DNA of 60,480 bases from Phlegmacium glaucopus (lineage: Eukaryota > Basidiomycota > Agaricomycetes > Agaricales > Cortinariaceae). A program made the translations under genes and the position numbers. Below are positions 12,022 through 60,480 of this stretch, in pieces (positions within the stretch are counted from its first letter, which is position 1; each line of letters begins with the position of its first letter). The notes beneath the pieces are model-generated. The model saw only the letters and a list, made by a program, of their open reading frames with translations. It was not told the DNA's origin and made no database searches. The DNA lies in assembly GCA_015039465.1 (NCBI GenBank), contig MU129998.1:161685-222164 (forward strand), given 5' to 3'.

Positions 12022-13119
12022 CATCAGGAAAAATGATTTTTGCCCTAGGTAGCCTTGGGTAATTTGTTAGTATCACATCACTACTCAGGACATCCCAGGA
12101 CACCCCAGGACACCCCAGGACACCCCAGGACATCCTAGAGCAGCACAGGTAAAATTTGAGTGTTACACACTTATCCAAGGACACCTCAGGACAACCTAGG
12201 ACAGCATAGATAAAGTTTTGAGTGTCACCCATTTTCTCAGGACACCTTTAGTGTATCCTGGTGCATTGACCATCTGGACTAAATCACATCAGGAGGCCCT
12301 GGGAGTCCCTTAGAATTTATGAATTTTGCTAGAAAATCTTTAACTGCTGTGTCCAGGAAAGTATTTTGCAGTTTTCTCAATAAGGAGAGCTGCTATAAAT
12401 ATAATTTAAACATATTCAGGGTCCTAAAACAATTCTCTACCATCTTTAAAAAATTTCCTTTTTTGGAATTTATGTAATCTACCCTGACCCAGCACCATAT
12501 GCTTGAAATCATGCTTATCTGTGATCATGTGACCAATGGTCTGTGCACCACCCAAAAGATATATAAACCACCCACAATTTTGTTTTCTTATTTCCTACTT
12601 CCCCAGTATTATACTAGTATATTTATGTATCACTATTTTATTATTATTTTATTACTAGTATATATGATGTTTAGAATAATTGAATATAATTTTATTATTA
12701 TTATTATTATTCTGTTGTGTGAGACCACTCAAATATCTGGTTTATATATGTTTTCTAGCATCAGATCCAAAGGGACTAAGGCTGCCTCAGGATGCTCTCA
12801 GGTGGCCTCAGGTTGCCTCAGGATGCTCTCAGGTTGCCTCAGGATGCTCTCAGGTTGCCTCAGGTTGCTCTCAGGTTGCCTCAGGTTGCTCTCAGGTTGC
12901 CTCAGGTTGCTCTCAGGTTGCCTCAGGTTGCTCTCAGGTTGCCTCAGGTTGCCTCAGGACGCTCTCAGGTTGCCTCAGGTTGCCCCAGGACAGCCTAAGA
13001 CTTTTCATACATAGGTAACTTACACCCCAGGGCAACCTCTTGACCTGAGCACCCTAAGCTGCCTGGGGCACCCCAGGACATTTCAGGACAGCCTAGGGCA
13101 GAAGTCATTTTTCCTGATG
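12022..13119. mobile_element. MITE-like element with CATCAGGAAAAATGA termini
   Basis: The terminal inverted repeats are CATCAGGAAAAATGA at 12022-12036 and its reverse complement at 13105-13119. The interior holds ACACCCCAGG repeats near 12090-12140, a 300-bp block (about 12240-12545) also present in the inverted repeat at 2.7-3.2 kb and 3.9-4.2 kb, and a 21-bp minisatellite at 12780-12990. There is no coding capacity. I see no clear target duplication. Because related sequence and ends also occur inside the 2.4-kb inverted repeat, both belong to one repeat family. Confidence 0.6.
12780..12990. repeat. 21-bp minisatellite (CTCAGGTTGCC unit)
   Basis: About nine imperfect tandem copies of a 21-bp unit built from CTCTCAGGTTG and CCTCAGGTTG. 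All three plus-strand frames are open because the unit length is a multiple of three and contains no stop. The resulting Ser/Gly/Cys- or Leu/Arg/Pro-rich frames should not be read as genes. Confidence 0.85.
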
Positions 13120-13384: not shown

Positions 13385-14471
13385 AGTCCCTTTAGGATTT
13401 AATACCCTTTGAACTGAGTGAAGCAAAGCAAGTCCACTTGTAAGTTCTTTCTAACTTGTGCCAATTCACAGTGGTGAAATTTGGGAAAGAAAGAATGAGT
13501 GCAAATTCACTAATGTTATTGGTGCTTTCTAGTTACTTTTATACATAAATGAGAAACAAAATTAGGTAAGAGTCTGTAAGGATGACTGATGATGTTTTAT
13601 GATGACTGTTACAACTTCAAACGATTCAGTGAGTTCTGATTGTAAACAGTCATATAAAGATCGAGTTCATTCAACAGTGAGCTCAATAGAATGCCAAGAG
13701 AGTCGTTCTTGAGGTATTGTCTAAAGAGTTTGAGGTCGTTCAAGAGTAAGGTAACCAGAGGTTGATTCTCAAGAATTATCTAAGGTTTACATCCAGTGTA
13801 ACTAGCATATTTATAGTAAATAAAAGAGGCATGCATAGGATGAGTAGTCCGCATGTTAGAAGGTATGCATGGATATAAATAGGTGAAACATATGAAAAGG
13901 ATGAGGCGAGCATATGTAAACGGGAATGAAAAGAAGAAGTAGAATGCATGTAAGTGAAATGAGCATGTGTTCGGCGGTGTTAAAAAAAAAGAAAAATAGT
14001 TCATAACAATGACTGATGATTTTATGATGTCATGTCTTGTTTTTGGATAATAAATCCTTGTTTTATGATGATAAATCTTGTTTCTAGATGATAAATCATG
14101 TTTCTAGATGATAAATCATGTTTCTAGATGATAAATCATGTTTCTAGATGATAAATCATGTTTCTAGATGATTAGAAACAAGACTTGACATTATAAAACA
14201 AGGATTTATCATCCAAAAACAAGACATGACATCATAAAATCATCAGTCATCATAAAACATCATCAGTCATCCTTACAGACTCTTACCTAATTTTGTTTCT
14301 CATTTATGTATAAAAGTAACTAGAAAGCACCAATAACATTAGTGAATTTGCACTCATTCTTTCTTTCCCAAATTTCACCACTGTGAATTGGCACAAGTTA
14401 GAAAGAACTTACAAGTGGACTTGCTTTGCTTCACTCAGTTCAAAGGGTATTAAATCCTAAAGGGACTTACC
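13385..14471. mobile_element. Fold-back element with long inverted arms
   Basis: The left arm starts AAGTCCCTTTAGGATTTAAT at 13385 and the right arm ends with its reverse complement at 14471. Removing the solo LTR at 13607-14008 and one target copy makes the arms match almost perfectly over about 290 bp (13385-13606 plus 14014-14075 against about 14165-14471). The centre is a 20-bp tandem repeat (ATGATAAATCATGTTTCTAG, about 14081-14168). It has no coding capacity. Copies of the terminal motif continue to the right at 14490, 14640 and 14700. Confidence 0.75.
13607..14008. mobile_element. 402-bp solo LTR with 5-bp target duplication
   Basis: The element starts TGTTACAACTTC and ends TTCATAACA, so the ends are TGTTA/TAACA. 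ATGAC flanks it directly at 13602-13606 and 14009-14013. A TATA-like CATATAAAG lies near 13650. Excising it together with one ATGAC restores the symmetry of the fold-back element, which is an internal control for the boundaries. Confidence 0.85.
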
Positions 14472-35532: not shown

Positions 35533-38500
35533 ATGTCTACTTCATCGAAACCTCAACTCACTGCTGAGCAGATTCAGAAACTACCAGCAAAGTTTACTCG
35601 ATTTCGTATCCTCGTGATCGGGCGAGCCAACGCAGGCAAGACAACGATCCTGCGAAGACTCTGCAACACTACGGGAGAACCTACAATCTTTAGTCCGAAC
35701 GGTCAAAAGGTGAGGTATATGGTGAAATTTCATGCCAGATGCTGACATCCATATCCATGGTCTCAGATCGAGTCCTCGGCCCTTACAGCTACATGCAAAA
35801 ACCTAGGAACCCCTCGAAATTTCATCTCGTGCGCCTCTGTTTGTACAAACAACCGTTTATGGTAGCTTGAACGCGCGCGTATGACGCATGTTGTGGAGTT
35901 AGAACCCTTCAAGCGCCCCAAGCTCCCTCCATCGCTTGCATCCTGCATCCATTGAGTCGCGTCCACTGTTGCAGCCCATCTATACAAACACTATGTCATA
36001 GCCAATCCTCTTGTGGTTGACCCTGGCACCAATGGCCAAGCAAGGAGAGTATAAAGAGACGAGGACCACTGGACTAAAAGGCAAGCAAAGTTTTCTCTCA
36101 TGCCCAATTATTTCAATCCGAATCCCGCTTACTTTCAACAACGCCATCGATTTCCTAATGACTCTTCCGGTAGATCTCCAATTTCTCTTTATCCGAAGAA
36201 TAGTCGTTCGGCCCATCCCTGTTGCTTCCACGATGTCATTCACCTTCATTCCTCGTAGGCACATAGTCAAAACAAGCTGTTTTTGCTCTTCCGGGATATA
36301 GCGGTAGGCACCCATGGTAGTTGGATTTAGAGGATGTTTAGTACTACTAACTACGGGGTATGCTGCCTCTCCATTATGGGTGGAGTTGTTGCTCCACAAT
36401 TTCCCGACACACTACCGAAACAGGACTTTTAGCATGTTAAGATACCATAAACGGTTGTTTGTACAAACAGAGGCGCACGAGATGAAATTTCGAGGGGTTC
36501 CTAGGTTTTTGCATGTAGCTGTAATCCATCGGTGGGAGTAAGTGGTTCCTGTGCTAGTATTGAGTTTATGTTCAATTAATATCCTCACACCGCAGCGTGG
36601 AGAGCATGACATCAGGAATCAAATTACGTTTGAGAGCAACCCTGGGTTTATCTTCCACGATTCCCGTGGTTTCGAAGCTGGCAGTGCTGAGGAGTTGAAG
36701 ACGGTACAGGAGTTCATTAAGGAGCGTTTGAAGGCAAAAAATGTGAAGGAGCAACTTCACGCAATCTGGTGTGTTAGTACTTGCCTTTAGAGAACAAATT
36801 TCTTGACAGAGAAAAAATGTTTTGGGTAGGTATTGCATTCCAACGAGTGATGACCGACCGATCACGGCAGCAGAAAGGAAATTTTTCAATGAATGTGGGA
36901 CGGGGCTTGGTATGTGTGTCATCTTAATCAATATGTTACTGTGAAGGATAAGTCTGTGAAGTACCAGTGATTCTTTTATGGACCAAGACTGACTCTCTTG
37001 ATGTTGCTAAAATCAAGCAACTCATGAAGGAAGGTAACAGTAGGGCTGAGGCATTGCAACAAGCTCCCCAAAAAGCTTGGACTGATTTTGAACAGAGTAC
37101 TCATCAACGGTTTGAAGAATTTAAATATCCACCAAAGGCATATGTTGTATTTCGAAGTAAGTGTTATACTTGTTAACAACTACTTGGTTAATTGTGTGGT
37201 ATAGAGATGCATGAGCCGGGAGCTGATTGTAAAGACTTGATTGAAAAAACAACAGCTGCACTGTCTAGTGAAGAATTACAACAGCTTTTTCTTTCAACAC
37301 AGCAAAACAATGTTGAAGTGTGTATTAGATATGGGGTCAAAAGGTTGAGAACTATGATATTTTTAAATTCCCACATTAACATAATTTCTAGACTTTTGAA
37401 TCAGACAGAATCAACTCTGTTGAGATATTTTAAAACAAATAAAGGAAATTGGGCATATTTTATGGCAACTGTTCTGTCATATTTTCCAAACATTGTAGTA
37501 TGTATTTGATAAGACTAAAGAAGTCATTGACAACTGATTGATTTTTGTAGAGTGTTATCTTGGGCATATAGTGCTTGATACTTTGGACTAACACATCTTA
37601 TGACAGCATGTGTGTAGGAAGAATCACCATTATGTTATATTGCTTGTTACCTCAATTTTTTTGACAGATTGCAAGTAGAAGACTACCTTGATTTGCCTTA
37701 ACTCTAGCTTACTCTTTTGACAGTTGGTAAGTGCAAGATATCTTGAACTACCTTTACTCTATCTTACTCTTTTGACAGTGGGTAGGTACAAGACCACCTT
37801 GAATTGCATTGATTCTAGCTTACTCTTTTGACAGGATGTGAGTGCAAGACCATCTTGAACTGCCCTAACTTTAGCTTACTCTTTTGGACAGTGGGTAAGT
37901 ACAAGACATCTTGAACTACTTTGACTCCAGCTTACTCTTTTAACAGTGGGTAAGTGCAAGATCTCTTGATCTTTGACTCTAGCTTACTCTTTTGACAGTC
38001 AGTAAGTACAAGATCATCTTGATCTGCTTTGACTCTGGCTTACTCTTTTGACAGGAGGTAAGTGCAAGACCATTAAATCTGCCTTGACTCTAGCTTACTC
38101 TTTTGACAGAAGGTAAGTGCAAGACCATCTTGGTCTGCCTAAAATCTAGCTTATTCTTTTGACAGTATGTAAGTACAAGACCCATCTTGATCTTCCTTGA
38201 CTGTAGCTTATTCTTTTGACAGTCTGTAAGCACAAGACCATCTTGATCTGCTTTGAATCTAGCTTACTCTTATTACAGGATGTAAGTGCAAGATCTTCTT
38301 GATCTGCCTTGACTCTAGCTTACTTTTTGATAGGAGGTAAGTACAAGGCCATCTTGGTCTGCTTTGACCCTTGCTTACTCTTTTGACAGTTGGTAACTGC
38401 AAAATAATCTTGATCTGCCCTGACTCTAGCTTACTCTTTTGATAGTATGTAAGTGCAGGACCATCTTGATCTTCCTTGACTCTAACTTATTCTTTTGACA

Positions 38501-39910
38501 GTCTGTAAGCACAAGACCATCTTCATCTGCCTTGACTCCAGCTTACTCTTTTGACAGGCAGTAAGTGCAAGACCATTAAATCTCCCTTGACTCTAATTTA
38601 CTCTTTTGACAGTGGGTAAGTGCAAGACCATCTTGATCTGCATTGACTCTAGCTTACTCTTTTGACAGGAGGTAAGGACCATCTTGGACTACCTTGACTC
38701 TGACTTATTCTTTTAACAGTATGTAAGTGCAAGACCATTTTGATCTGCCTTGACTCTAGCTTACTCTTTTGACAGGAGGTAAGTTCAAGGACCATCTCAA
38801 ACTGCCTTGACTCTAGCCCACTCTTTGACAGGAGGTAAGTGCAAGGCCATCTTGATCTACTTTGACTCTGGCTTACTCTTTTGACAGGAGGTAAGTGCAA
38901 GACCATCAAATCTGTGTTGACTCTAGCTTACTCTTTTGACAGTTGGTAAGTGGGAGATGATCTCGATCTGTCTTGACTCTAGCTTACTCTCTCCACAGGA
39001 GGTAAGTTCAATCACAGAGAAATCTCTATTACTCTGTCACCTTCTTTTACTCATGTTACAATCTATTTGGACAGTATGTAGGTGCATTAATCATATCTTC
39101 ATTTATGCTTACCTGATTGGCATATCCTTTGGACAGTATGTATGTTGAACATGTAATGTTATTCACCAATTACTCCATCACTAACATTTCTGAACAGAAA
39201 GTATATGCATTAATTTTCTAATGTCTTTTTCTCTGCTGACCTATGTAAACCTTTGCTTACAGATGGCAAGTGTGATTACTCTTACTTTTGTTTTGAATCT
39301 ATATAATAAATGACATTTGGTGAAATTTTTTTGGCCTCATTCCCATCTCTGTACTGACCCTTTTGTCTAGTTTTTGAATTTCAATGTACAGGATTCCATC
39401 TCCAAAATTATGTCACCTATTGTGAGCATTTTCTCTTTGGCAATACACTGGCAGAAGAGTGGCTAATTTCATCTTTCAAGGTTTCCAGCTTATCTACAAC
39501 TTTCAACTTAAAAGAAGCTACATACTGTGCAATTGGCATGCATCTGATTCAACCTTTTTTCTATACTCTCTCTAACATTAACTTTACTTTTAGTTGCAGC
39601 TATCATTGGCCACTTGTCTTTCTTTCTTCAACAAGAATCACCAAGTACCAGAAACTCTTTAGAAAGAGCTGCTCAAATTTATCAGCAATCCACTTACAAT
39701 GCCTCTATCAAGCAAGCAATTGAAAATATTTTTGAACTAGAAAATATTTTCAAAGGCTCCCATGTGAAGAGTCATGTCAAACATACATTCTCAAATCCTT
39801 TCAAAGGCTTTTTGCTTGTTGATGACATCAATCATGAATTACTGGTTGCAGAGGTTGTACAGACTGCATTGAATAATCTCTTGTGTATGGATTCAATTCT
39901 TATTTATTGA
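35533..39910 (+). CDS. P-loop GTPase-like gene carrying a single-codon exon array
   Basis: Seven upstream exons phase exactly: 35533-35709, 35767-35785 plus 36524-36537 (one 33-nt exon, now split by a transposon), 36596-36768, 36830-36909, 36962-37156, 37205-37343 and 37392-37497. They encode a G domain: P-loop GRANAGKTT, DSRGFEAG as the DxxG switch, and LLWTKTDSLD as the base-specificity motif. The type resembles the G-domain proteins common in agaricomycetes, distantly AIG1/septin-like. At 37497 the frame is phase 0 and enters the array at 37498-39370. After it, 39371 onward reads FLNFNVQDSISKIMSPI and, after an unresolved junction, a helical C-terminus from about 39590 (HLSFFLQQESPSTRNSLERA) to TGA at 39910. 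Unless the transposon-bearing exon is skipped, the gene is disrupted. The cellular role is unknown. Confidence 0.7.
35786..36521 (-). mobile_element. Truncated Tc1/mariner element, 736 bp
   Basis: Terminal inverted repeats of about 78 bp begin CAGCTACATGCAAAAACC and are flanked by TA at 35784-35785 and 36522-36523. On the minus strand the interior encodes the amino-terminal helix-turn-helix of a Tc1-type transposase. The DDE catalytic region is missing, so the copy is non-autonomous. The ends still match nearly perfectly, which suggests a fairly recent insertion. It sits inside the second coding exon of the GTPase g gene. Confidence 0.88.
35980..36315 (-). pseudogene. Tc1-type transposase N-terminal fragment
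   Basis: From ATG 36315 the frame begins MGAYRYIPEEQKQLVLTM, then GMKVNDIVEATGMGRTTILR, a helix-turn-helix DNA-binding domain of the kind that opens Tc1/mariner transposases of basidiomycetes. After about 60 residues the sequence stops resembling transposase and runs to a stop without any DDE motif. It could at most make a DNA-binding fragment. Confidence 0.75.
37498..38389 (+). other. Single-codon exon array, part 1 (introns 1-16)
   Basis: Tandem intron-like units, mostly 52-54 bp, with donors mostly GTAAGT/GTAAGC, a branch-like CTTAC or CTTAT about 13 nt before the acceptor, and acceptors mostly TTTTGACAG. Each pair is separated by exactly 3 nt. The triplets, with start positions, are AGT 37551, CAT 37607, ATT 37668, TTG 37724, TGG 37779, GAT 37835, TGG 37892, TGG 37947, TCA 37999, GAG 38055, AAG 38110, TAT 38166, TCT 38223, GAT 38279 and GAG 38334. 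The first three units are more diverged. The donor at 37554 (GTTATC) is weak and that at 37671 is GC type. Exon 7 ends in phase 0, so each triplet would be one codon. Confidence 0.65.
38390..39370 (+). other. Single-codon exon array, part 2 (introns 17-32)
   Basis: The array continues with triplets TTG 38390, TAT 38446, TCT 38502, GCA 38558, TGG 38613, GAG 38669, TAT 38720, GAG 38776, GAG 38832, GAG 38888, TTG 38943, GAG 38999, TAT 39075, TAT 39137, AAA 39198 and ATG 39263. Intron lengths stay at 48-53 bp up to 38998, then rise to 73, 59, 58, 62 and 105 bp as sequence similarity fades. The last donor (39266) is GC type. The donor at 38393 is GTAACT. Across both parts the 31 residues would be 7 Glu, 5 Tyr, 4 Trp, 4 Ser, 3 Leu, 2 Asp, 2 Lys and one each of His, Ile, Ala and Met: acidic and aromatic. 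Confidence 0.65.
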
Positions 39911-41303: not shown

Positions 41304-44300
41304 TCATTTCTTCATATTCATGAGTTCAACATTTAGCTGCTCAGCTTCACCCCACCTTCCCTGATTATTATATGTACTTCCTATATTTTCCATACTCTTG
41401 AGGGTATCTGGATGTTCTACACCAAGCAGTATGTTCATGTCTATAAATTGAACCTCCAGCTGCTCTGCCCTCATTCCACCTTCTCTGATTGCTGTCTATC
41501 CTTGCTAGGTTTGCTGTTCTCTTGATGATCTCTGGATATTCTGCACCAACCAGCTTCTCCTTCAGGTCCATAACTTGACTCTCTAACTGCTCTGCCTCAT
41601 TCCATCTTCCCTGATCACTGTATGTGCTGGCTATATTTTCCATACTCCTAAGGGTGTCTGGATGTTCTGTACCAAGCAGCTTCTTCCTCATGTCCATAAC
41701 TTGAACCTGCAGCTGCTCTGCCTCATTCCACCTTCCCTGATCACTGTATGTGCTTCCTAGATTTGCCAGACTCTTGAGGGTGTCTGGATGTTCTACACCA
41801 AGGAGTTTCTTTCTCATATTAATAACTTGAACCTGCAGCTTCTCTGCCTCATTCCATCTTCCCTGATTACTGTATGTGCTTGCCAGATTTGCCATACTCT
41901 TGAGGGTGTCTGGATGGTCTGCACCAAGCAGCTTCTTCCTCATCTCCATAACTTGAACCTGCAGTTGCTCTGCCTTATTCAATTGTCCTTGATCACTGTA
42001 TGTGCTTGCCATATTTGCCATACTGTTGAGGGTATTTGGATGTTCTGCACCAAGCAGCTTTTTCATCATGTCTATAACTTGAACCTGCAGCTGCTCTGCT
42101 TCAGCCCACCTCCCCTGATCACTGTATGTGATTGCTAGATTTGCCATATTATTGAGAGTGTCTGGATGTTCTGCACCAAGCAGCTTCTTCATCATGTCCA
42201 TAACTTGAACCTGCAGCTGCTCTGCCTCATTGAATTTGCCTTGATTACTGTATGTGTTTGCTAGATTTGCCATACTGTTGATGGTATTTGGATGTTTTGC
42301 ACCAAGCAGCATTTTCATCATGTCCATGACTTGAACCTCCAGCTGTTCTGCATCATTCCATCTTCCCTGATCACTGTAGGTGCTTGTTATATTTGCTATA
42401 CTCCTGAGGGTGTCTGGATGTTCTGGACCAAGCAGCTTCTTCCTCATGTCCATCACATGAACCTCCAGCTGCTCTGCTTCTTTCCACCTTCCCTGATCCC
42501 TGCATGTGTTTGCTAGATTTGACATACTGGTCAAGGTGTTTGGATGTTCTGCACCAAGCAATGCCTTCCTCATGTCCATAACTTGAACCTGCAGTTGCTC
42601 TGCCTCATTCCATCTTCCCTGAACCCTGTATGTGCTTGCTAGATTTTCCATACTGCTCAAGGTGTTTGGATGTTCTGCACCAAGGAGCTTCTTCATCATG
42701 TCCATAACTTGAACTTGCAGCTTCTCTGCCTCATTCCATCTTCCCTGACGCCTGTATGTATTTGCTAGATTTGACATACTCTTGATTGTGTCTAGGTGTT
42801 CCATACCAAGCAGTTTCTTCCTCATGTCCATAACTTCAATCTGCAGCTGCTCTGCCTCATTCCACCTTCCCTGACACCTGTATGTGTTTGCTAGAGTTGA
42901 CATACCCTTGAGTGTGTATGGATGTTCTGTACCAAGCAGTTTTTTCCTCATGGCCACAACTTGAACCTCTAGATGCTCTTCATTGTTCCAGTCCCCATTC
43001 TCCTGCATTACTAGTGCAAAATTAGACCATTTATCATCATAGTACTGCTTCATAAGTCCTATCTGCCTTCCATGTAGCTCATTTGCCTTGATATGTGGAA
43101 ATATTAACCGTCTCAGTGCATAATCCTGACTTTCAAATCTCCATTGAATTGCACAGGACAAGAGTATGCTTCCCATCTCACACATTCTTTGCTGCTCATA
43201 TTTTGACATTCTCTCCCGACTCCAGTAGTGCACCAGAGGATGAATAGACAACATTTTAGATGATTGTCCTCTTTTCATCAAGGAGAAAGAGAGAAGGACA
43301 CTAATCCCTTGTCCAAAGATGAACTCATCCCAGTGACCATCATTATCCAAGCCAAGCAGAGTACGATCCAGTGAAGTGGCTGCCTGTGGAAGCTTCCTAT
43401 TAACATATTTCCTGGACTTCTCAGCAGCAGATTGGAATATTTCTTTAGAAATACTACTATGATGATAGAAAGCACATATTTGAAGAATTAGGATTGCTGC
43501 ATGGGCTGCTTGTGCATCTCCAGCAGTGGAATGTCCACTAGCTCTCCTTTCTATTTCTTTGAAAGAAAGATCCCAAGTCCCATACACTGTTTTATCATAC
43601 TTTGATGCTCCTGTGAAGGTAGCATCTGACATAAGAGCCTGACGATGTACTGAGAATTGCCTCAAATATTGATCAATATCACATTTCCCAACTTCAATAT
43701 AAGCACCAGCCTGATCAATAGCAAGAGGAATGAAGCCAAGTTCAGTCACAATATTTTTGGCAGCTTGTATATGCTCAGGCAATGGATCCAAAGAGCTAGC
43801 TTTGAGAAGCAGAGCTATAGCAGCTGACTCCTCCATTTCATGGATCTCAATTTTGTTCTCAGATGATAGAATCCTTCCCATGAATCTGTTTCTGCTAGTA
43901 ATCAGAATGTTACCTCTGTTACCTGGAGGAATGAACTTGGCCACCACCTCTGGAGGAGGATCATCAGCATTATCAAACACAATCAACCATTCTTCTTGGA
44001 GAGAAGATATCCACTGGAGGACAGAGTCAACTGAGCCACCCACACCAGAATATTGTGCAGCAGGAAGGCTAGATATGCCCTTGAGAGACACTTCCATGCT
44101 CTCCTGAGAGGAGGCATCAACCCAGAAGACATGGGGAAAACTATGAAGACATGAATCCAGTGTTGTGAATAGCAGAGTTAAGAACCCTTACTTGTCAGAC
44201 ATTTCTTCTATGAACTTGAGACAAATCTGGGTCTTTCCTATACCTCCCAATCCCCAGAGGAGACAAGAGTGCCTTGACATCAGTCTGCCAGCAGCACGAT

Positions 44301-49561: not shown

Positions 49562-52500
49562 ATGTTCAGCGATATGAAGCGCATTTATAAGGAACTTGGC
49601 AAGTCTAAGAAACCAAAACACACATCTCCGACCACCACCGACGCTCTTGGTTCAAGGCCTGAAGTAGCAACTTCGACATCGACAGCCATAACAAGCCTCG
49701 CTGATCTCGTGCCATCCGTTCCTGCTAGCGCTGCAGCTGAAAGCGCCCAAGTTAATCAAGCCGTTGTAATTACTGTGAGTATTCGCCTTCGCCCATCGCG
49801 TCCAAAATTACGTATCCGTCGTCGTCGATTAGGCTACCCAGGAACTCCAAGTCTCCGTGCCAGTATCTGCCTTGGAGATCAATGATCTTTTTCCCGTAAG
49901 CATTCAACTTATCCCATCACATCCATAATCACTCAATCATCGTCTTCGATCAGGCCGCCCATGAACTCCAAGTCTCCGCCCCAGTCTCTGCCTTAGTGGA
50001 GATCAATGATCTTGCTCCTCGCGTAAGCATTCAACTCGGCCCATCGCATCCATAACTCAATCATCGTCCTTGATCAGACGGTCCATGAACTCCAAATCTC
50101 AGTTGCCCCTACAGCGCATTTGGAAGAAACTTCGCTCTCCCCACCTGATACCGTAATGCAAGCCAAATTGGAATCTACGGAATCAGAACAAAATCCCTGT
50201 GTGAGTTGATTACACCTGCTGTTCTCGGCTATTCCTGATCATCAACAGACTCAGCATTCTGGCTCGGGTCTCTTGCCGAATGCCCAGAATATTTTCATCG
50301 CTGGCAGCACTTTTGTAAGTCTTCTTTTATACTGTACAAATGATTTTGCAATAATTGTATATTTATCTGCCAGAACCATATAGTCAATATGCCCCCTGCC
50401 AATACTGGCCAAGGACAGGTAAAGATCCTTGTACCTCAGAAGCCAAACCCCAGTCCAATCTTTACTGGACGGAGAGATGTACTTGACAAACTTGGGAAGA
50501 TTTTTGTTCCTCGTACTGATAGTCAACCAAGGCGCTCTTGTCTCCTCTGGGGATTGGGAGGGATTGGAAAGACCCAGATCTGTCTAAAGCTCACAGAAGA
50601 CATGTCTGACAGGTAAGTGTCTTCACATTACATCCACAACAACACTGTAGATTCATTTCTTATGCTAGTTTTTCACATGTGTTCTGGGTTGATGCTTCCT
50701 CTCTTGAAAGCATTACAATGTCTTTCAAGGGGATATCCACTATTCCTGCTGCACAGGTTTTTGGTGTAGATGGCTCAGTTGAGTCTGCCCTCCAATGGAT
50801 ATCTCATATTCCAGAGGAATGGTTGATTGTATTTGATAATGCTGATGACCCCTCTCCAGAGGTGGTGGCCAAGTTCTTTCCTCTAGGTAACAGAGGTAAT
50901 ATTCTGATTACTAGCAGAAACAGATCCATGGGAAGGATTGTATCATTTGAGAACAGAATTGCAATCAGTGAGATGGAGGAGTCAGATGCTATAACTCTAC
51001 TTCTCAAGTCCAGCTGTTTGGCTCCATTACCTGAGCATCAACAAGCTGCAAGAAGGATTGTCAATGAACTTGGCTACATTCCTCTTGCTGTTGATCATGC
51101 TGGTGCTTATATTGAAGCTGGGAAATGTGATCTCAATAAATATCTGAGACAATTCTCCTTACATCGTCAGACTCTTATGTCAGATGCTGCATTCACAGGA
51201 GCATCCAACTATAATCAAACAGTGTATGGGACTTGGGATTTATCCTTTAAAGAAATAGAAAGGAGAGCTAGTGGACAATATGACAGTGGAAGTGCACAAG
51301 CAGCCCAGGCTGCAATCCTAATTCTTCAAATATGTGCTTTCTATCATCATAGCAATATTTCTAAAGACATATTCCAATCTGCTGCTGAAGAGTCCAATAA
51401 ATATGCTTTTGATAGTGGGGTAGCTGAAAAGCTACCCCAGGCAATCAATTCATTGGATCATACCTTACTTGGACTGGACAATGATGGTCAGTGGGATGGC
51501 TTTCTGTTTGGGCAAGGCATTAGTGTACTTCTGTCATTCTCCTTGATGAGAAGAGGACAATCCTCTGAAATATTGTCTGTTCATCCCTTGGTGCACTGCT
51601 GGAGTCGAGAGCGAATGTTGAAATCTGAGCAGCAAAGAATATGGGAGATGGGAAGCATAATATTGTCCTGTGCAATTCCATGGAGATTTACCACTGAGGA
51701 TTATGCATTATGGAGATTGGTTCTTCCACATATCAAGGCAAGTGAGTTACATGGAAGGCAGATGGGGTTGATCAGCCAGTACTATGATGATAAATATAGT
51801 AATTTTTCACTGGTAATGAGGAAGAGTGGAGAGTGGAAGAATGCAGAGCAGCTGGATACTCAAGTGATGGACATGAGGAAGAAGCTTCTTGGTGCAGAGC
51901 ATCCAGACACCCTCTCAAGCATGGCAAATCTAGCATACACATACAGGCATCAGGGAAGGTGGAATGAGGCAGAGCAGCTAGAGGTTCAAGTGATGGACAT
52001 GAGGAAGATGCTTCTTGGTGCAGAGCATCCAGACACCCTCTCAAGCATGGAACATCTAGCATCAACATACTGGCATCAGGGAAGGTGGAATGAGACAGAG
52101 CAGCTAGAGGTTCAAGTGATGGACATGAGGAAGAAGCTTCTTGGTGCAGAGCATCCAGACACTCTCTCAAGCATAGCAAATCTAGCATCCACATACTGGC
52201 ATCAAGGAAGGCGGAATCAGACAGAGCAGCTAGAGGTTCAAGTGATGGACATGAGGAAAAAGCTTCTTGGTGCAGAGCATCCAGACACCCTCTCAAGCAT
52301 AGCAAATCTAGCATCCACATACTGGCATCAGGGAAGGTGGAATGAGGCAGAGCAGCTAGAGGTTCAAGTGATTGACATGAGGAAGAAGATTCTTGGTGCA
52401 GAGCATCCAGACACCCTCTCAAGCATAGCAAATCTAGCATCCACATACAGGTATCAGGGAAGATGGAATGAGGCAGAGCAGCTAGAGGTTCAAGTAATGG

Positions 52501-53428
52501 ACATGAGGAAGAAGCTTCTTGGTGCAGAGCATCCAGACACCCTCTCAAGCATGGAAAATCTAGCATACACATACAGGTATCAGGGAAGGTGGAATGAGGC
52601 AGAGCAGCTAGAGGTTCAAGTGATGGACATGAGAAAGAACCTTTTTGGTGCAGAGCATCCAGACACCCTCTCAAGCATGGCAAGTCTAGCATCCACATAC
52701 AGGTATCAGGGAAGGTGGAATGAGGCAGAGCAGCTAGAGGTTCGAGTGATGGACAAGAGGAAGATGCTTCTTGGTGCAGAGCATCCAGACACCCTCTCAA
52801 GCATGGGAAATATTGCATCCACATACAAGCATCAGGGAAGGTGGAATGAGGCAGAGCAGCTAGAGGTTCAAGTGATGGACATGAGAAAGAAGCTTCTTGG
52901 TGCAGAGCATCCAGACACCCTCTCAAGCATGGGAAATATAGCGTCTACATACAGGCATCAGGGAAGGTGGAATGAGGCAGAGCAGCTAGAGGTTCAAGTT
53001 ATGGACATGAGTAAGAAACTGCTTGGTGTAGAACATCCAGACACCCTCAGCAGTATGGCAAATCTGGCAAGCATATACAGGGATCAGGGAAGGTGGAATG
53101 AGGCAGAGCAGCTGGATGTCCAAGTTATGGACATGAGAAAGAAGCTTCTTGGTGCAGAGCATCCAGACACCCTCTCAAGCATGGCAAATCTAGCATCCAC
53201 ATACCAGCATCAGGGAAAGTGGAATGAGGCAGAGCAGCTAGAGGTTCAAGTGATGGATAAGAGGAAGAAGCTTCTTGGTGCAGAACATCCAGACACCCTC
53301 TCAAGCATGGCAAATCTGGCATCCACATACAAGCATCAGGGAAGGTGGAATGAGGCAGAGCAGCTAGAGGTTCAACCCATGAACATGAGAGGTGCAGAGC
53401 ATCCAGACACCCTCAAAAGTGGAATGTA
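49562..53428 (+). CDS. NLR-like protein, NB-ARC with TPR repeats (copy 2)
   Basis: The N-terminal exon starts MFSDMKRIYKELGKSKKPK (ATG 49562; the Met at 49574 aligns with copy 1). Small phase-0 exons follow, including three duplicated ones (49833-50200), then NAQNIFIAGSTF, PIFTGRRDVLDKLGKIF and Walker A GLGGIGKTQ (near 50560). The main exon from about 50671 has WLIVFDNADDPSPEVVAKF, NILITSRNR, ELGYIPLAVDHAGAYI and SVHPLVHCWSRERM, then twelve full TPR-like 42-residue units and a truncated thirteenth before TAA at 53426-53428. The units are nearly identical at DNA level, unlike those of copy 1. It is head-to-head with copy 1 and about 4.5 kb away. Sensing and oligomerising activity is inferred from the family. 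The large minus-strand frame at 51772-52926 is an antisense shadow of the repeats. Confidence 0.9.
49833..50200 (+). repeat. Tandemly duplicated phase-0 exons in NLR copy 2
   Basis: Exons 49833-49895 (63 nt), 49954-50022 (69 nt) and 50078-50200 (123 nt) all begin with a version of ELQVS (ATQELQVSVPV, AAHELQVSAPV, TVHELQISVAP). The intervening introns are also copies of each other (GTAAGCATTCAACT... ending GATCAG). All junctions are phase 0, so copy number can change without a frameshift. NLR copy 1 has two related exons here (near 44650-44830). Confidence 0.75.
51850..53425 (+). repeat. 126-bp tandem repeats encoding the TPR domain
   Basis: About 12.5 direct repeats of 126 bp. Neighbouring units differ at only a few positions; the segment CTTCTTGGTGCAGAGCATCC recurs almost unchanged. 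The last unit is damaged (ATGAGAGGTGCAGAGC lacks the KKLL codons), and repeat-like sequence decays beyond the stop to about 53490. Confidence 0.9.
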
Positions 53429-55607
53429 ACTGGCAGATATTAGAGAAGGTGAAAGGAAGCAGAGCAGGTGAAGGTTCAAGTGGTACTGAGTACCCTTACA
53501 ATGGAGTCTTGAACAATTTGTATTTTATTTACTTTAAAAAATGTTTTGGAACAAATCTTTTTTTTTCACTTTTCTGTATGATATCCATTTGAAGTCCAGT
53601 TGAAAGACTGGACAATATAAAGACTGATCAAGCCTGGTCTGGCCTTTGGTCTATCACCATTTGAAAATTGAAGATTGATCTAAGACTGGTCTTACACATA
53701 AGGACACTACAGTGTGTTGTATAGTACAATTCCTATAATGGACACAGTGTGCCATATGGTATGGATTCCTGGAACCCCTTGAATCCAGGAATATCACCTA
53801 CCATATAGAGAAATACACAGTGTGCTGTGGTCTACGCATTCAAGGAATGCCTGTAAAATGCCAACAGTGTATGCTGCTGCCGGCTCCAGGCCCATCCCTA
53901 GGCCACAGGCAGGGCTGGTATCCATGCATATATATTGTACCTTTCTCTCTGATGTCCTAGAGTCATGATAGCAGCCATCAGTGAGCATAAGGGTAAGGGT
54001 GTTGATATCTGAGGCAGCCAGTGCCAGTGTCAGTGCCAAGAACATGACCATCTGGTGTCCACTGTCAGTGCTGGTGATGTACCTGTGGTGGGATCAGACC
54101 ACAAATATGCATGTAGTTCATGGGGTTAATGTAGATTTCCTCAATAGGCTTTAGAAGTAGTTTGTGGTATTGAAAAAGGAAAGCAATCCATGAAGATAGC
54201 GAAATCCACAAATGATAGCAAAGTACACAAATTAATTTAAAAGAGTGAGACTATGACTTAGAATGATGCTTCAAAGTTTATGGGATCAAAACTCTGGCCG
54301 TCTCTTGTTCACCTTGCCTCCTACTTGCTATGGATACTTAATACAAGAGTTGTATACTAGCCAGGTGCAGATATGTGAAACAGTAATGTAAAAATTGAAC
54401 TAATGTGAAATTACATTGACCCAGTAGTTTGGTAATGGAGGAATAGGAGACATAGTAAAAATAAAGATGATGAGTAAGGAGGTGTAAGTAAGGCAGGTTG
54501 CTTTACCATTGGACAATGGTATTGCCATAAATGGGATAGGAATAAATGCCACAAATTATTTTAGGTGTACAATGGCTCTACAGGTAGCCTCTCACTTGTA
54601 TAAATAGTAGTTGTATATACTCTACAAAAATCAGTGGAATATTCCCCGTCAATTCAGAAATCTTATCACATTTAATCATTCTCAAAGAGCTCAGACCTGA
54701 GCTCTACTTATATTTCATTCAGAAAAACACAACATCCTCTCAGAGTAACGAAGGTCCGTTACTGAGCAAGTGTCTGTGTTATCTTATCATAAACCACCCC
54801 AAAAACCCTGCTTGAACCAGAGATGGATTATATCCTCTCAATACTCTCACATTTTAAAATATACTTCTACCGTAGTACAAACTACAATCACACAGAGGTC
54901 AGTTGAATGACCTCCTGTTTTGAAGGATATGATAAATATATATATATGGAAAATTGAAAGAAAGTAAGTGCAAAACAAAACGGACCATTGTAAAGATATA
55001 AATGTTCCTGGTTCAAAACAGATACAGTAAGTTATTGAGGGTAAGTCAGAAATATTGATTTCCGATGGTGCGAGCGTTTAAGTCACATGATGTGTGATTT
55101 ACACTAACAATTTAGGCGGTTGCAAAATTGTGTGTGCTCGTTATTTGAATATTCGAGAGATTTAATTGCAGTAAAGAGATTTGTTAGATCTCTTTTTGAG
55201 AATGAGTTTAGAAATCCGAGGCTAGCTATGGGTGGGGTACTTCCACTGTCCTCTACAGTAAATAATTACTACCTTTTATATGTAAAATGAAAGGAAATTT
55301 TAAAATGAATTTTACCAGCACTGTTGATCCTAAAACAAATTGTTCTGTTTTAAATTAATTTTTAGAGATGCTAGCTCCTCTTTAGCTGTCTCCATTCTCT
55401 TCTTTTCCTTGCGCAAGCCCGGTCCTGCCTGTGCCCCTTTTCCTGTCTGTGACTTTTCCCAGAATGGGAAAGTCATGTGTGACAGGTTTCTAAAACAGGA
55501 AATCATCTTTTGTGTGTGCGCTTGCTTGTGTGAATGAACTCCATTCCTTACACCATGATAAAACCAGTGCAAGGGATGCACAGAGAGGTAAGGAATGTGT
55601 ATGTGAA
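53429..55607. other. AT-rich region without recognised gene
   Basis: About 2.2 kb. It begins with decayed TPR-repeat sequence. The only notable structures are GTAACGAAGGTCCGTTAC (about 54745-54762), which can form a hairpin, and a TA run at 54940-54950. No coding frame has recognisable motifs. Confidence 0.45.
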
Positions 55608-59025: not shown

Positions 59026-59037
59026 TGTCCCCCACCA

Positions 59038-59165
59038 GATCTGATCAGAACCAGTCAGATTCTGTGCAGATCTGCTCAGAACCTGAGCAGTTCTGAGCAG
59101 TTCTGACCAGTTCTGCTCAGATTCTGAGCAGATCTGCACAGAATCTGACTGGTTCTGATCAGATC
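59038..59165. repeat. Perfect 44-bp inverted repeat with 40-bp loop
   Basis: 59038-59081 and 59122-59165 are exact reverse complements over 44 bp (the left arm begins GATCTGATCAGAACCAGTCA). The loop is itself made of CTGAGCAGTTCTG units. The start CCCACCAGATCTGATCAGA resembles the centre of the repeat family at 2.9-3.0 kb and 4.2 kb. It abuts the broken LINE. Confidence 0.9.
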
Positions 59166-59299
59166 TGCAATACTTATAAGTCAATTCCTACTAATTCATC
59201 TTTTCTAACTTTTCAAACATATTAATTTAAATTTAAGAAGTTTATTGAGGGGGGATTAGTTACTAATACATTAGAATCACAAAATAATATATTTAGTTA

Positions 59300-59745
59300 A
59301 TATCAGAAAAATGAAATAAAGGTAGTAGGTGGTCAAAATGGGTGGGTAGAGTGTAAAAATGGGTGGGTAGAGTGTAGAAATGGTTGGGTAGAGTGTAGAA
59401 ATGGATAGGTAGGGGTGGAAACGGGGGTGATGGGGGTGAAACGGGGGTGATGGGCGTCTATTCATCATCATAGGTGGGTATTCATCGTCATCGGGGTGTA
59501 TTTGTCGTCATCTGGGCATCATTGGGGTGTATTTGTCATCTTGGGCGTCTATTGGTCGTCGTTGGGGTGTATTCGTCGTCATTGGGGTGTATTTGTTATT
59601 GTTGGGGTGTATTCGTCATCGCGGGGGGTGTATTCGTCGTCTTGGGGCCTATTTGTTGTCATGGGTGGGTATTCATCGTCCTCGGGGCGTATTCATCATC
59701 GTGGGGGTGTATTCGTCATTGTGGGGGTGTATTATCTTTTTATTA
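59300..59745. repeat. GT-rich minisatellites
   Basis: Two arrays: copies of GGGTGGGTAGAGTGTAGAAAT (about 59338-59420), and about a dozen copies of a roughly 20-bp unit like GGGGTGTATTCGTCGTCATT (about 59455-59740). All plus-strand frames look open because of the repetition; none is a gene. Confidence 0.8.
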
Positions 59746-60049: not shown

Positions 60050-60480
60050 AGTACATACTGCTGCTGCTGCTGTATGTTGTACATGTCGCTGCTGTTTGTT
60101 GGTGATACGGATGTTGTTGGTGTGTGCTGCACATGTTGCTGCGTTGTGTACATGTTGTTCTTGTTGTGTTTGTTGTTGGGCATGTGCACATGCTACTGCG
60201 TGTGTGCAGGTGCTGTTGATGATCTGCGGGTGCTGCTACTTATGGGGGGGTGCTGCTGCTTATCTGCGGGTACTGCTGCTTATCTGTGGGTGCTACCTAC
60301 TTACGTGGGGGTGCTACTGTTTGTGGGGGTGCTACTGTTTATAGGCGGGTAATCCTGCTTATCTGCGGGTTCTGCTGCTTATGTGCAGGTGCTGTTGCTT
60401 ATATGGGGGTGTTGCGACTTAAGTGGGGTTGCTGTTGCCTTACGTGGGGGGTGCTGCTGTTTATCTACGGGCTCTACTGC
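60050..60480. repeat. CTGCTG-rich minisatellite running off the window
   Basis: It begins with a CTG run at 60058-60072, then degenerate copies of GGGTGCTGCTGCTTATCTGC and similar units up to the window end. The array continues beyond the right edge. Confidence 0.75.

Follow-up and report, generated by a model that had tools for sequence, protein, structure and literature searches.

How could a gene be read through a stretch in which nearly every exon is a single codon? This question is raised by a locus in the 60.5-Mb genome assembly of the agaric Phlegmacium glaucopus, within a 60,480-nt stretch of contig MU129998.1 (positions 161,685–222,164; hereafter the window). On the forward strand of the window, a predicted gene for a GTPase-like protein is interrupted at 37498..39391 by an array of 32 introns and 31 one-codon exons, which would encode the peptide SHILWDWWSEKYSDELYSAWEYEEELEYYKM. 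Based on a triplet parse and a family-wide frame test, the one-codon exons would be spliced in sequence and would encode a variable segment at one position of a GTPase-like family, a reading to which we assign a probability of about 0.82.

Structure of the array and the frame of its triplets

The first-pass annotation of the window had described 31 consecutive triplets at 37551–39265, each flanked exactly by an AG acceptor and a GT or GC donor and none of them a stop, with GC donors after two triplets. All of this was recovered here, and the GC donors lie at 37671 and 39266. The first bases of one-codon exons 1–10 are 37551, 37607, 37668, 37724, 37779, 37835, 37892, 37947, 37999, and 38055; those of exons 11–20 are 38110, 38166, 38223, 38279, 38334, 38390, 38446, 38502, 38558, and 38613; and those of exons 21–31 are 38669, 38720, 38776, 38832, 38888, 38943, 38999, 39075, 39137, 39198, and 39263 (all forward strand). 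The 31 introns within 37498–39262 measure 48–73 nt. The range of 48–105 bp given earlier is thus right at its lower end, whereas 105 nt would apply to the last intron only, if it ended at 39370. In place of that acceptor, we prefer 39391, because the homologous proteins P0002 and P0121 put the next exon at D-S-I-S-K-I-M; the last intron is then 126 nt long. The first donor may lie at 37495 (GTAGTA) rather than 37498 (GTATGT), as P0008 and P0134 lack the corresponding Val. The proposed phase 0 at 37497 is retained in our gene model and would hold with either donor.

In the array core (37679..39011, forward strand), a unit of ~56 nt, composed of a 53-nt intron and a codon, recurs and is common to other arrays. 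The last five one-codon exons (38999..39265, forward strand; E-Y-Y-K-M) are accompanied by longer introns outside the repeat family, and the last codons of paralogs are similar. Intron length changes from unit to unit, whereas the exons keep to 3 nt, with rare cases of 6 or 9 nt. Among 692 array units, the donor is GT in 681 and GC in 11 and the acceptor is AG in all, GT or GC and AG being demanded by the parse. With GTAAGT-like donors and a CTTAC-like branch-like motif, the array introns have the ends and consensus of U2-type introns.

The signature, described earlier for one locus, is real but far more widespread. With at most one mismatch, TTTTGACAGNNNGTAAGT matches the genome 1319 times (745 + 574), compared with 24 times (1 + 23) for a reversed control pattern, and clusters of the signature, each separated from the next by over 5 kb, occupy at least 46 places on 23 contigs. 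The cluster ends, as outermost places, were entered by hand, and the 25 clusters that were not fetched are known from pattern matches alone. DNA was read for 21 loci, namely the window and 20 fetched regions (L031–L050), which contain 23 arrays of 6 to 76 tiny exons; the parse recovered 29 of the 31 window exons, so these array counts are low, and L034 and L048 were each split in two. Of the 532 strong acceptors in these sequences, 509 are followed by a donor at a distance of exactly 3 nt. For the remaining 23, the donor spacing is 9 nt in three cases; single cases have 6 nt, 4 nt (L046), 32 nt (L034), 33 nt, and 52 nt; and for 15 no donor is listed in the next 60 nt. Several of these 15 are AG-NNN-GT with a donor variant outside the pattern, and some lie outside arrays. 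Array exons of 6 or 9 nt in L044, L045, L042, and L037 are possibly fused or not-yet-split codons.

When the array triplets are concatenated, frame 0 contains 2 stops in 756 codons, compared with 40 and 106 in 733 codons in the other two frames. A null preserving the composition of neighbouring bases gives an expectation of 28.4 stops (standard deviation 3.7). Genome-wide, exactly flanked triplets include 1 stop in 587, a TAG, and neither TAA nor TGA. As triplets, TAA and TGA would create a GTAAGT- or GTGAGT-like string and TAG would create a CAG-TAG pair; in L033 and L036, CAG-TAG-GT could be bypassed via the second AG, leaving a zero-length exon. Splice-site bias as the sole cause of the missing stops was considered and rejected, as TAT (GTATGT) is frequent (40 of 738) and the other frames are rich in stops. 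GAG (59) and AAG (12) are used as array codons despite carrying the same kind of AG risk as TAG. Additionally, the last upstream exon ends on a codon boundary before GT in 15 of 20 loci and the first downstream exon starts in phase 0 in 6 of 20, in each case those where it was found. Collectively, the frame-wise stop counts, the phase-0 flanks, and transcript-like proteins carrying the segment (see below) support the earlier proposal that each triplet is a codon, and we regard translation of the triplets as highly probable.

Codons ending in C are missing from the parsed arrays (0 of 738) and nearly so genome-wide (1 of 587). This absence need not reflect coding selection, because a C before a GT donor makes a CpG, a dinucleotide almost lacking in the arrays: 28 were seen versus 1709 expected in 41.8 kb (37607–39200 and L031–L050), while the flanks reach 0.73 of expectation. 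From this loss, the array repeats look as if they may have been methylated and decayed, which could account for the missing NNC codons too.

The gene family and its homologous proteins

In all 20 fetched regions, the array adjoins exons of one GTPase-like gene family; upstream exons were found in 17, downstream exons in 18, and both in 15. The position of the array within the gene is identical wherever flanks were found. Two JGI proteins, P0008 (295 residues on a contig of 1373 nt) and P0134 (285 residues on 955 nt), run uninterrupted from the G-domain part to the C-terminal part. At the array position, FPHL or FPNV is followed in these proteins by an acidic, aromatic-rich segment of 42 or 51 residues. 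The window array introns total ~1.8 kb, and the four ordinary introns across the range of P0134 amount to 213 nt. Because the array introns alone would add ~1.8 kb, these contigs cannot be unspliced copies of such genes, and from their shortness we infer that both proteins derive from RNA; the exon structure in their species may differ. Moreover, the pentapeptides preceding the next exon in P0008 (EHHDL) and P0141 (EIHDW) match array ends such as EYYKM, EIHCM, and EYHDR in register, with rank 1 of 291 and 2 of 153, respectively. The 15 terminal pentapeptides used were hand-picked from the 21 loci; L033, L037, L038, L041, L043, and L049, in which the array end is unclear, were omitted, and the accompanying composition test covered 15 of the 23 arrays. 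In a more distant subfamily (P0026, P0067, and P0017, all JGI), an E/H/R/Y-rich low-complexity segment follows a WFPH motif, perhaps from similar arrays.

Of the residues encoded by the arrays, 41% are D, E, L, or G, the four most frequent ones, and 14% are F, Y, or W; 21 of 23 arrays have a negative net charge. AlphaFold modelling of P0026 and P0008 predicts the segment poorly (ten-residue means of 42–62 and 43–72, respectively) and the parts on either side of it better. Pfam scans of these two proteins returned no family at E 0.001.

The window gene model and a proposal for its splicing

The joined gene model comprises 454 residues with no internal stop, and 93 of its 1365 coding nucleotides are array triplets. 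Upstream of the array, six exons were modelled where seven had been proposed; they encode a G domain in which GRANAGKT, DSRG, and WTKTD motifs can be recognised by eye. Predicted exon 1 (35533..35709; this and all following exons on the forward strand) carries the start codon, shared with annotated P0001, and the P-loop GRANAGKT. It is separated from exon 2 by a predicted intron of 886 nt (35710..36595, forward strand), which contains an element with 86-nt inverted repeats, whose arms (35783–35868 and 36439–36524) are 99% complementary. At this junction, P0004 and P0006 have 11 extra residues, which the paralog P0005 lacks. Exon 2 (36596..36768; RGEHDI...HDSRGFEAG), exon 3 (36830..36909), and exon 4 (36962..37156; WTKTD) are predicted after P0001. 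The boundary of predicted exon 5 (37205..37343) was taken from P0002 (NNVEVCIKYGVKRLLNQ), and predicted exon 6 (37392..37497, alternative end 37494) ends with YFPNIV in phase 0. Downstream of the array, the first ordinary exon (39392..39421; DSISKIMSPI, phase 0) follows P0002 and P0121, and the next exon (39481..39535; VSSLSTTFNLKEATYCAI) and the last exon (39594..39910; C-terminal helical part, stop at 39908–39910) follow P0121. Together, these three exons encode DSISKIMSPI...FNLKEATYCAIVAAIIGHLSFF and the C-terminal part. By eye, the exon boundaries outside the array match annotated P0001, P0002, and P0121, except for intron 1, which is modelled differently in P0001. Among the 10 Pfam families listed for a 446-residue version of the model, MMR_HSR1 alone reaches its cut-off (23.1 bits versus 21.9), and none is a model of the immunity-related GTPases (IRG), a STAND ATPase, or WD repeats.

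We propose intron definition, in which the spliceosome would treat every array intron as its own unit and remove the introns one by one, since two splice sites with 3 nt between them could scarcely be occupied simultaneously. The short, consensus-rich 53-nt introns would suit this mode. For the single-nucleotide exon of APC11, the authors likewise consider intron definition more plausible and propose successive removal of the two introns (PMC4674806). Removal of the array introns by the spliceosome would give the protein a short and variable segment, in most cases acidic, and up to about 75 introns would be spliced out in a row for one such segment. As first suggested from the frame, retaining a single array intron, whichever of the 32 it is, shortens the modelled protein to 293–358 of its 454 residues. 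Where splicing fails, a G-domain-only protein would result, ending within the first retained intron or shortly past it, and P0004 indicates that retention probably occurs.

With less confidence, the protein would be an IRG-like GTPase in which the segment forms a flexible loop linking the G domain to a C-terminal helical bundle. The codons of the segment would diversify freely as the introns remain similar, and the loop might serve as a surface for self/non-self or parasite recognition. That it is a variable recognition loop that matters has, in our view, slightly less than an even chance. Skipping of single codons is doubtful. Equally tentative is the fuller scheme, in which a recognition loop would be built one exon per codon, each codon would move about flanked by two interchangeable introns, and recombination in introns together with skipping of single exons would add, drop, or swap single residues with the frame kept; a single genome would thereby have dozens of loops, 6 to 80-odd residues long, and possibly many more by splicing.

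On the 3′ side of the array, two open reading frames at 41368–44097 (reverse strand) and 50679–53429 (forward strand) contain 12–13 TPR units of 42 residues, which arise from 126-nt DNA repeats (82% and 91% matches). In Pfam, both show TPRs and DUF7779 and no NB-ARC. By eye they look NLR-like, which fits a recognition neighbourhood and proves nothing. Minisatellites with periods of 10–31 nt occur in the window at 12779–12989, 14038–14172, 59036–59733, and 60205–60471.

Turnover of the arrays, rival explanations, and known systems

The codon positions of the arrays are at or near saturation (entropy 1.54–1.87 bits), compared with 0–1.50 bits at the other positions within 24 nt on either side. 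Among unit pairs from different arrays with near-identical introns on both sides (≤3 edits), the codon is shared in 1 of 114; among pairs from the same array whose two flanking introns are identical, it is shared in 4 of 9. In both sets the pairs overlap and are not independent. For register-specific block duplications, 15 of 20 unit pairs have identical codons. The earlier idea of a multiplied cassette of intron plus codon therefore holds for block duplications, which keep their codons, but not otherwise, as codons are decoupled from introns in the cross-array pairs. Codon hypermutation, suggested by different codons flanked by near-identical introns, was rejected on the basis of the unchanged block-duplicate codons. 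Unit-by-unit alignment of codons is feasible in a few blocks; the block duplicates contain three single-base codon differences, all nonsynonymous and too few for dN/dS, and differ by 0.052 per nucleotide in introns and 0.117 in codons, a thin sample of 20 pairs and 3 comparisons. Strong homogenisation of introns between genes was also considered, and it is weaker than first thought: the median difference is 0.176 for gene flanks and 0.151 for array introns (105 pairs, 15 loci). Since array introns are nearly as diverged as the flanks, much of the intron similarity is accounted for by recent growth of the family. Of 173 exact 26-nt intron matches, the 100 that were listed all fall in array clusters. 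We read these patterns as block turnover and exchange within introns, with the codons filtered by selection.

Several observations weigh against one-codon exons spliced in sequence. Two TAG triplets, in L033 and L036, are the only stops in the 756 array codons. Five of 20 loci have no match on one side, with only the downstream gene part in L031, L046, and L050 and only the upstream part in L041 and L049. The 4-nt exon lies in L046, which has no G-domain exons, and the 32-nt stretch after a strong acceptor in L034 coincides with an interruption of the array. Such interruptions, formed by other sequence or unparsed units, span 4649–5718 in L034 (~1.1 kb) and 4087–4814 in L048 (~0.7 kb) on the array strand. 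Among the annotated models, P0001 stops at the array, P0121 starts after it, and P0002 jumps over it, and P0004 (305 amino acids on 1117 nt), seemingly spliced upstream, stops in the apparent first array intron. The segments of P0008, P0134, and P0141 may be divided into one-codon exons, as homology suggests; the last five residues of P0134, PMYDL, match no array end (rank 25 of 281), and a protein search with residues 255–458 of P0026, covering the array and the C-terminal half, matched only P0026 itself. The nearest whole-length solved folds are IRGs, at a weak level (rmsd 8 Å, ~11% identity) that G-domain-only families nearly equal. We do not claim IRG membership for the modelled protein, and a fold shows no function.

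If the array were normally skipped, exon 6 would be spliced directly to the exon starting at 39392, leaving the triplets out of all or nearly all mRNA. The annotated paralog P0002 is modelled exactly in this way (FPQIV-DSISKIM), which may, however, be the choice of the gene finder. Stop avoidance in frame 0 only and exon lengths in multiples of three point to translated triplets, and P0008 and P0134 carry a segment at the array position; skipping is quite improbable. Alternatively, a hard-to-splice array could act as a splicing switch that sets the ratio of a short G-domain protein, made by retention with a stop within or close to the array, to the full-length one, the codons mattering little. 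The truncation caused by all 32 single retentions would suit such a switch, and P0004 resembles the short form it would produce. However, the diversity of the codons, the similar end codons of paralogs, and the avoidance of stops imply that the peptide matters, and array length ranges from 6 to 76 exons, so that we consider a mere switch unlikely.

The origin of the arrays could also be explained by introner-like mobile intron copies that landed at codon boundaries in an older ordinary exon, with no cassette duplication. Near-identical introns do lie beside unrelated codons, as in the 1 of 114 cross-array pairs and in L041, where three consensus-perfect introns lie between GGG, GTT, GGT, and TCT. 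However, insertion does not in itself give an exact 3-nt spacing, and the codons flanking perfect introns are not duplicates: those in L041 and L043 mostly have different codons on each side, while one in L046 has ATG on both. With the listed intron matches confined to array clusters and the block duplications carrying their codons, insertion has a low probability. Finally, the array might be a non-coding minisatellite merely resembling splice sites, or a decayed pseudogene. It is a tandem repeat with a period of 56, and the gene is partial at the five loci named above. Against this stand the frame-specific avoidance of stops, the threefold exon lengths, the similar end codons beside divergent introns, and the open coding sequence on both sides, which make such an explanation extremely improbable.

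The schistosome micro-exon genes have very small symmetrical exons in runs, whose skipping would keep the frame, and a fast-evolving product; there, micro-exons form most of the coding region and splice variants are reported (PMC4350168). In contrast, the arrays concern one segment of a GTPase-like protein, with exactly one-codon exons and introns that are copies of each other. Their micro-exons are likewise symmetrical (3, rarely 6 or 9 nt, with the one 4-nt case in L046), but they account for only 93 of 1365 coding nucleotides in the window gene model. The WD-repeat genes HET-D/HET-E of Podospora resemble the arrays in that repeats are alike between loci, a few codons differ strongly, and array length is unstable (PMC1805685; PMC2873952). 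There, the whole WD-40 repeat is coding; here, a conserved repeat body with hypervariable codons is also present, but the conserved part is intron and the variable part is one codon. Loop L4 of MxA belongs to a large GTPase and is unstructured and fast-evolving, with a key aromatic residue that decides target specificity (PMC11482965). Its likeness to the array segment is an analogy of position and character only. We know of no micro-exons in MxA. Introners are near-identical introns multiplied within one genome. In contrast, as far as the listed matches show (100 of 173), the array introns are confined to one position in one gene family with an exact 3-nt spacing, and target-site duplication is not seen, most perfect introns of L041 and L043 lying between unlike codons.

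Very short exons are thought to be hard to splice, as adjacent splice sites need room (PMC4674806). Inclusion of exons of 1–3 nt is reported for Arabidopsis APC11 (PMC4674806), Fusarium CYP621A (PMC12940212), Drosophila hth (PMC7392893), and plant micro-exons (PMC8831610). In these accounts, 1-nt or 3-nt exons are isolated or a few per gene, whereas 6–76 occur in a row here, across the 21 loci read. We found no report of arrays of one-codon exons in the open-licence PubMed Central papers searched. Exons of 3 nt, intron copies, and hypervariable repeats are each known; no report of their combination was found in those papers. Since the annotated models break off at the array, begin after it, or pass over it, further genes of this kind may have gone unnoticed elsewhere. 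Up to 76 consecutive, mostly one-codon exons spliced in order would be a natural substrate for testing sequential intron definition, and in this GTPase-like family they would constitute a new route of protein diversification, in which the conserved part of the repeat is non-coding and the variable part is a single codon.

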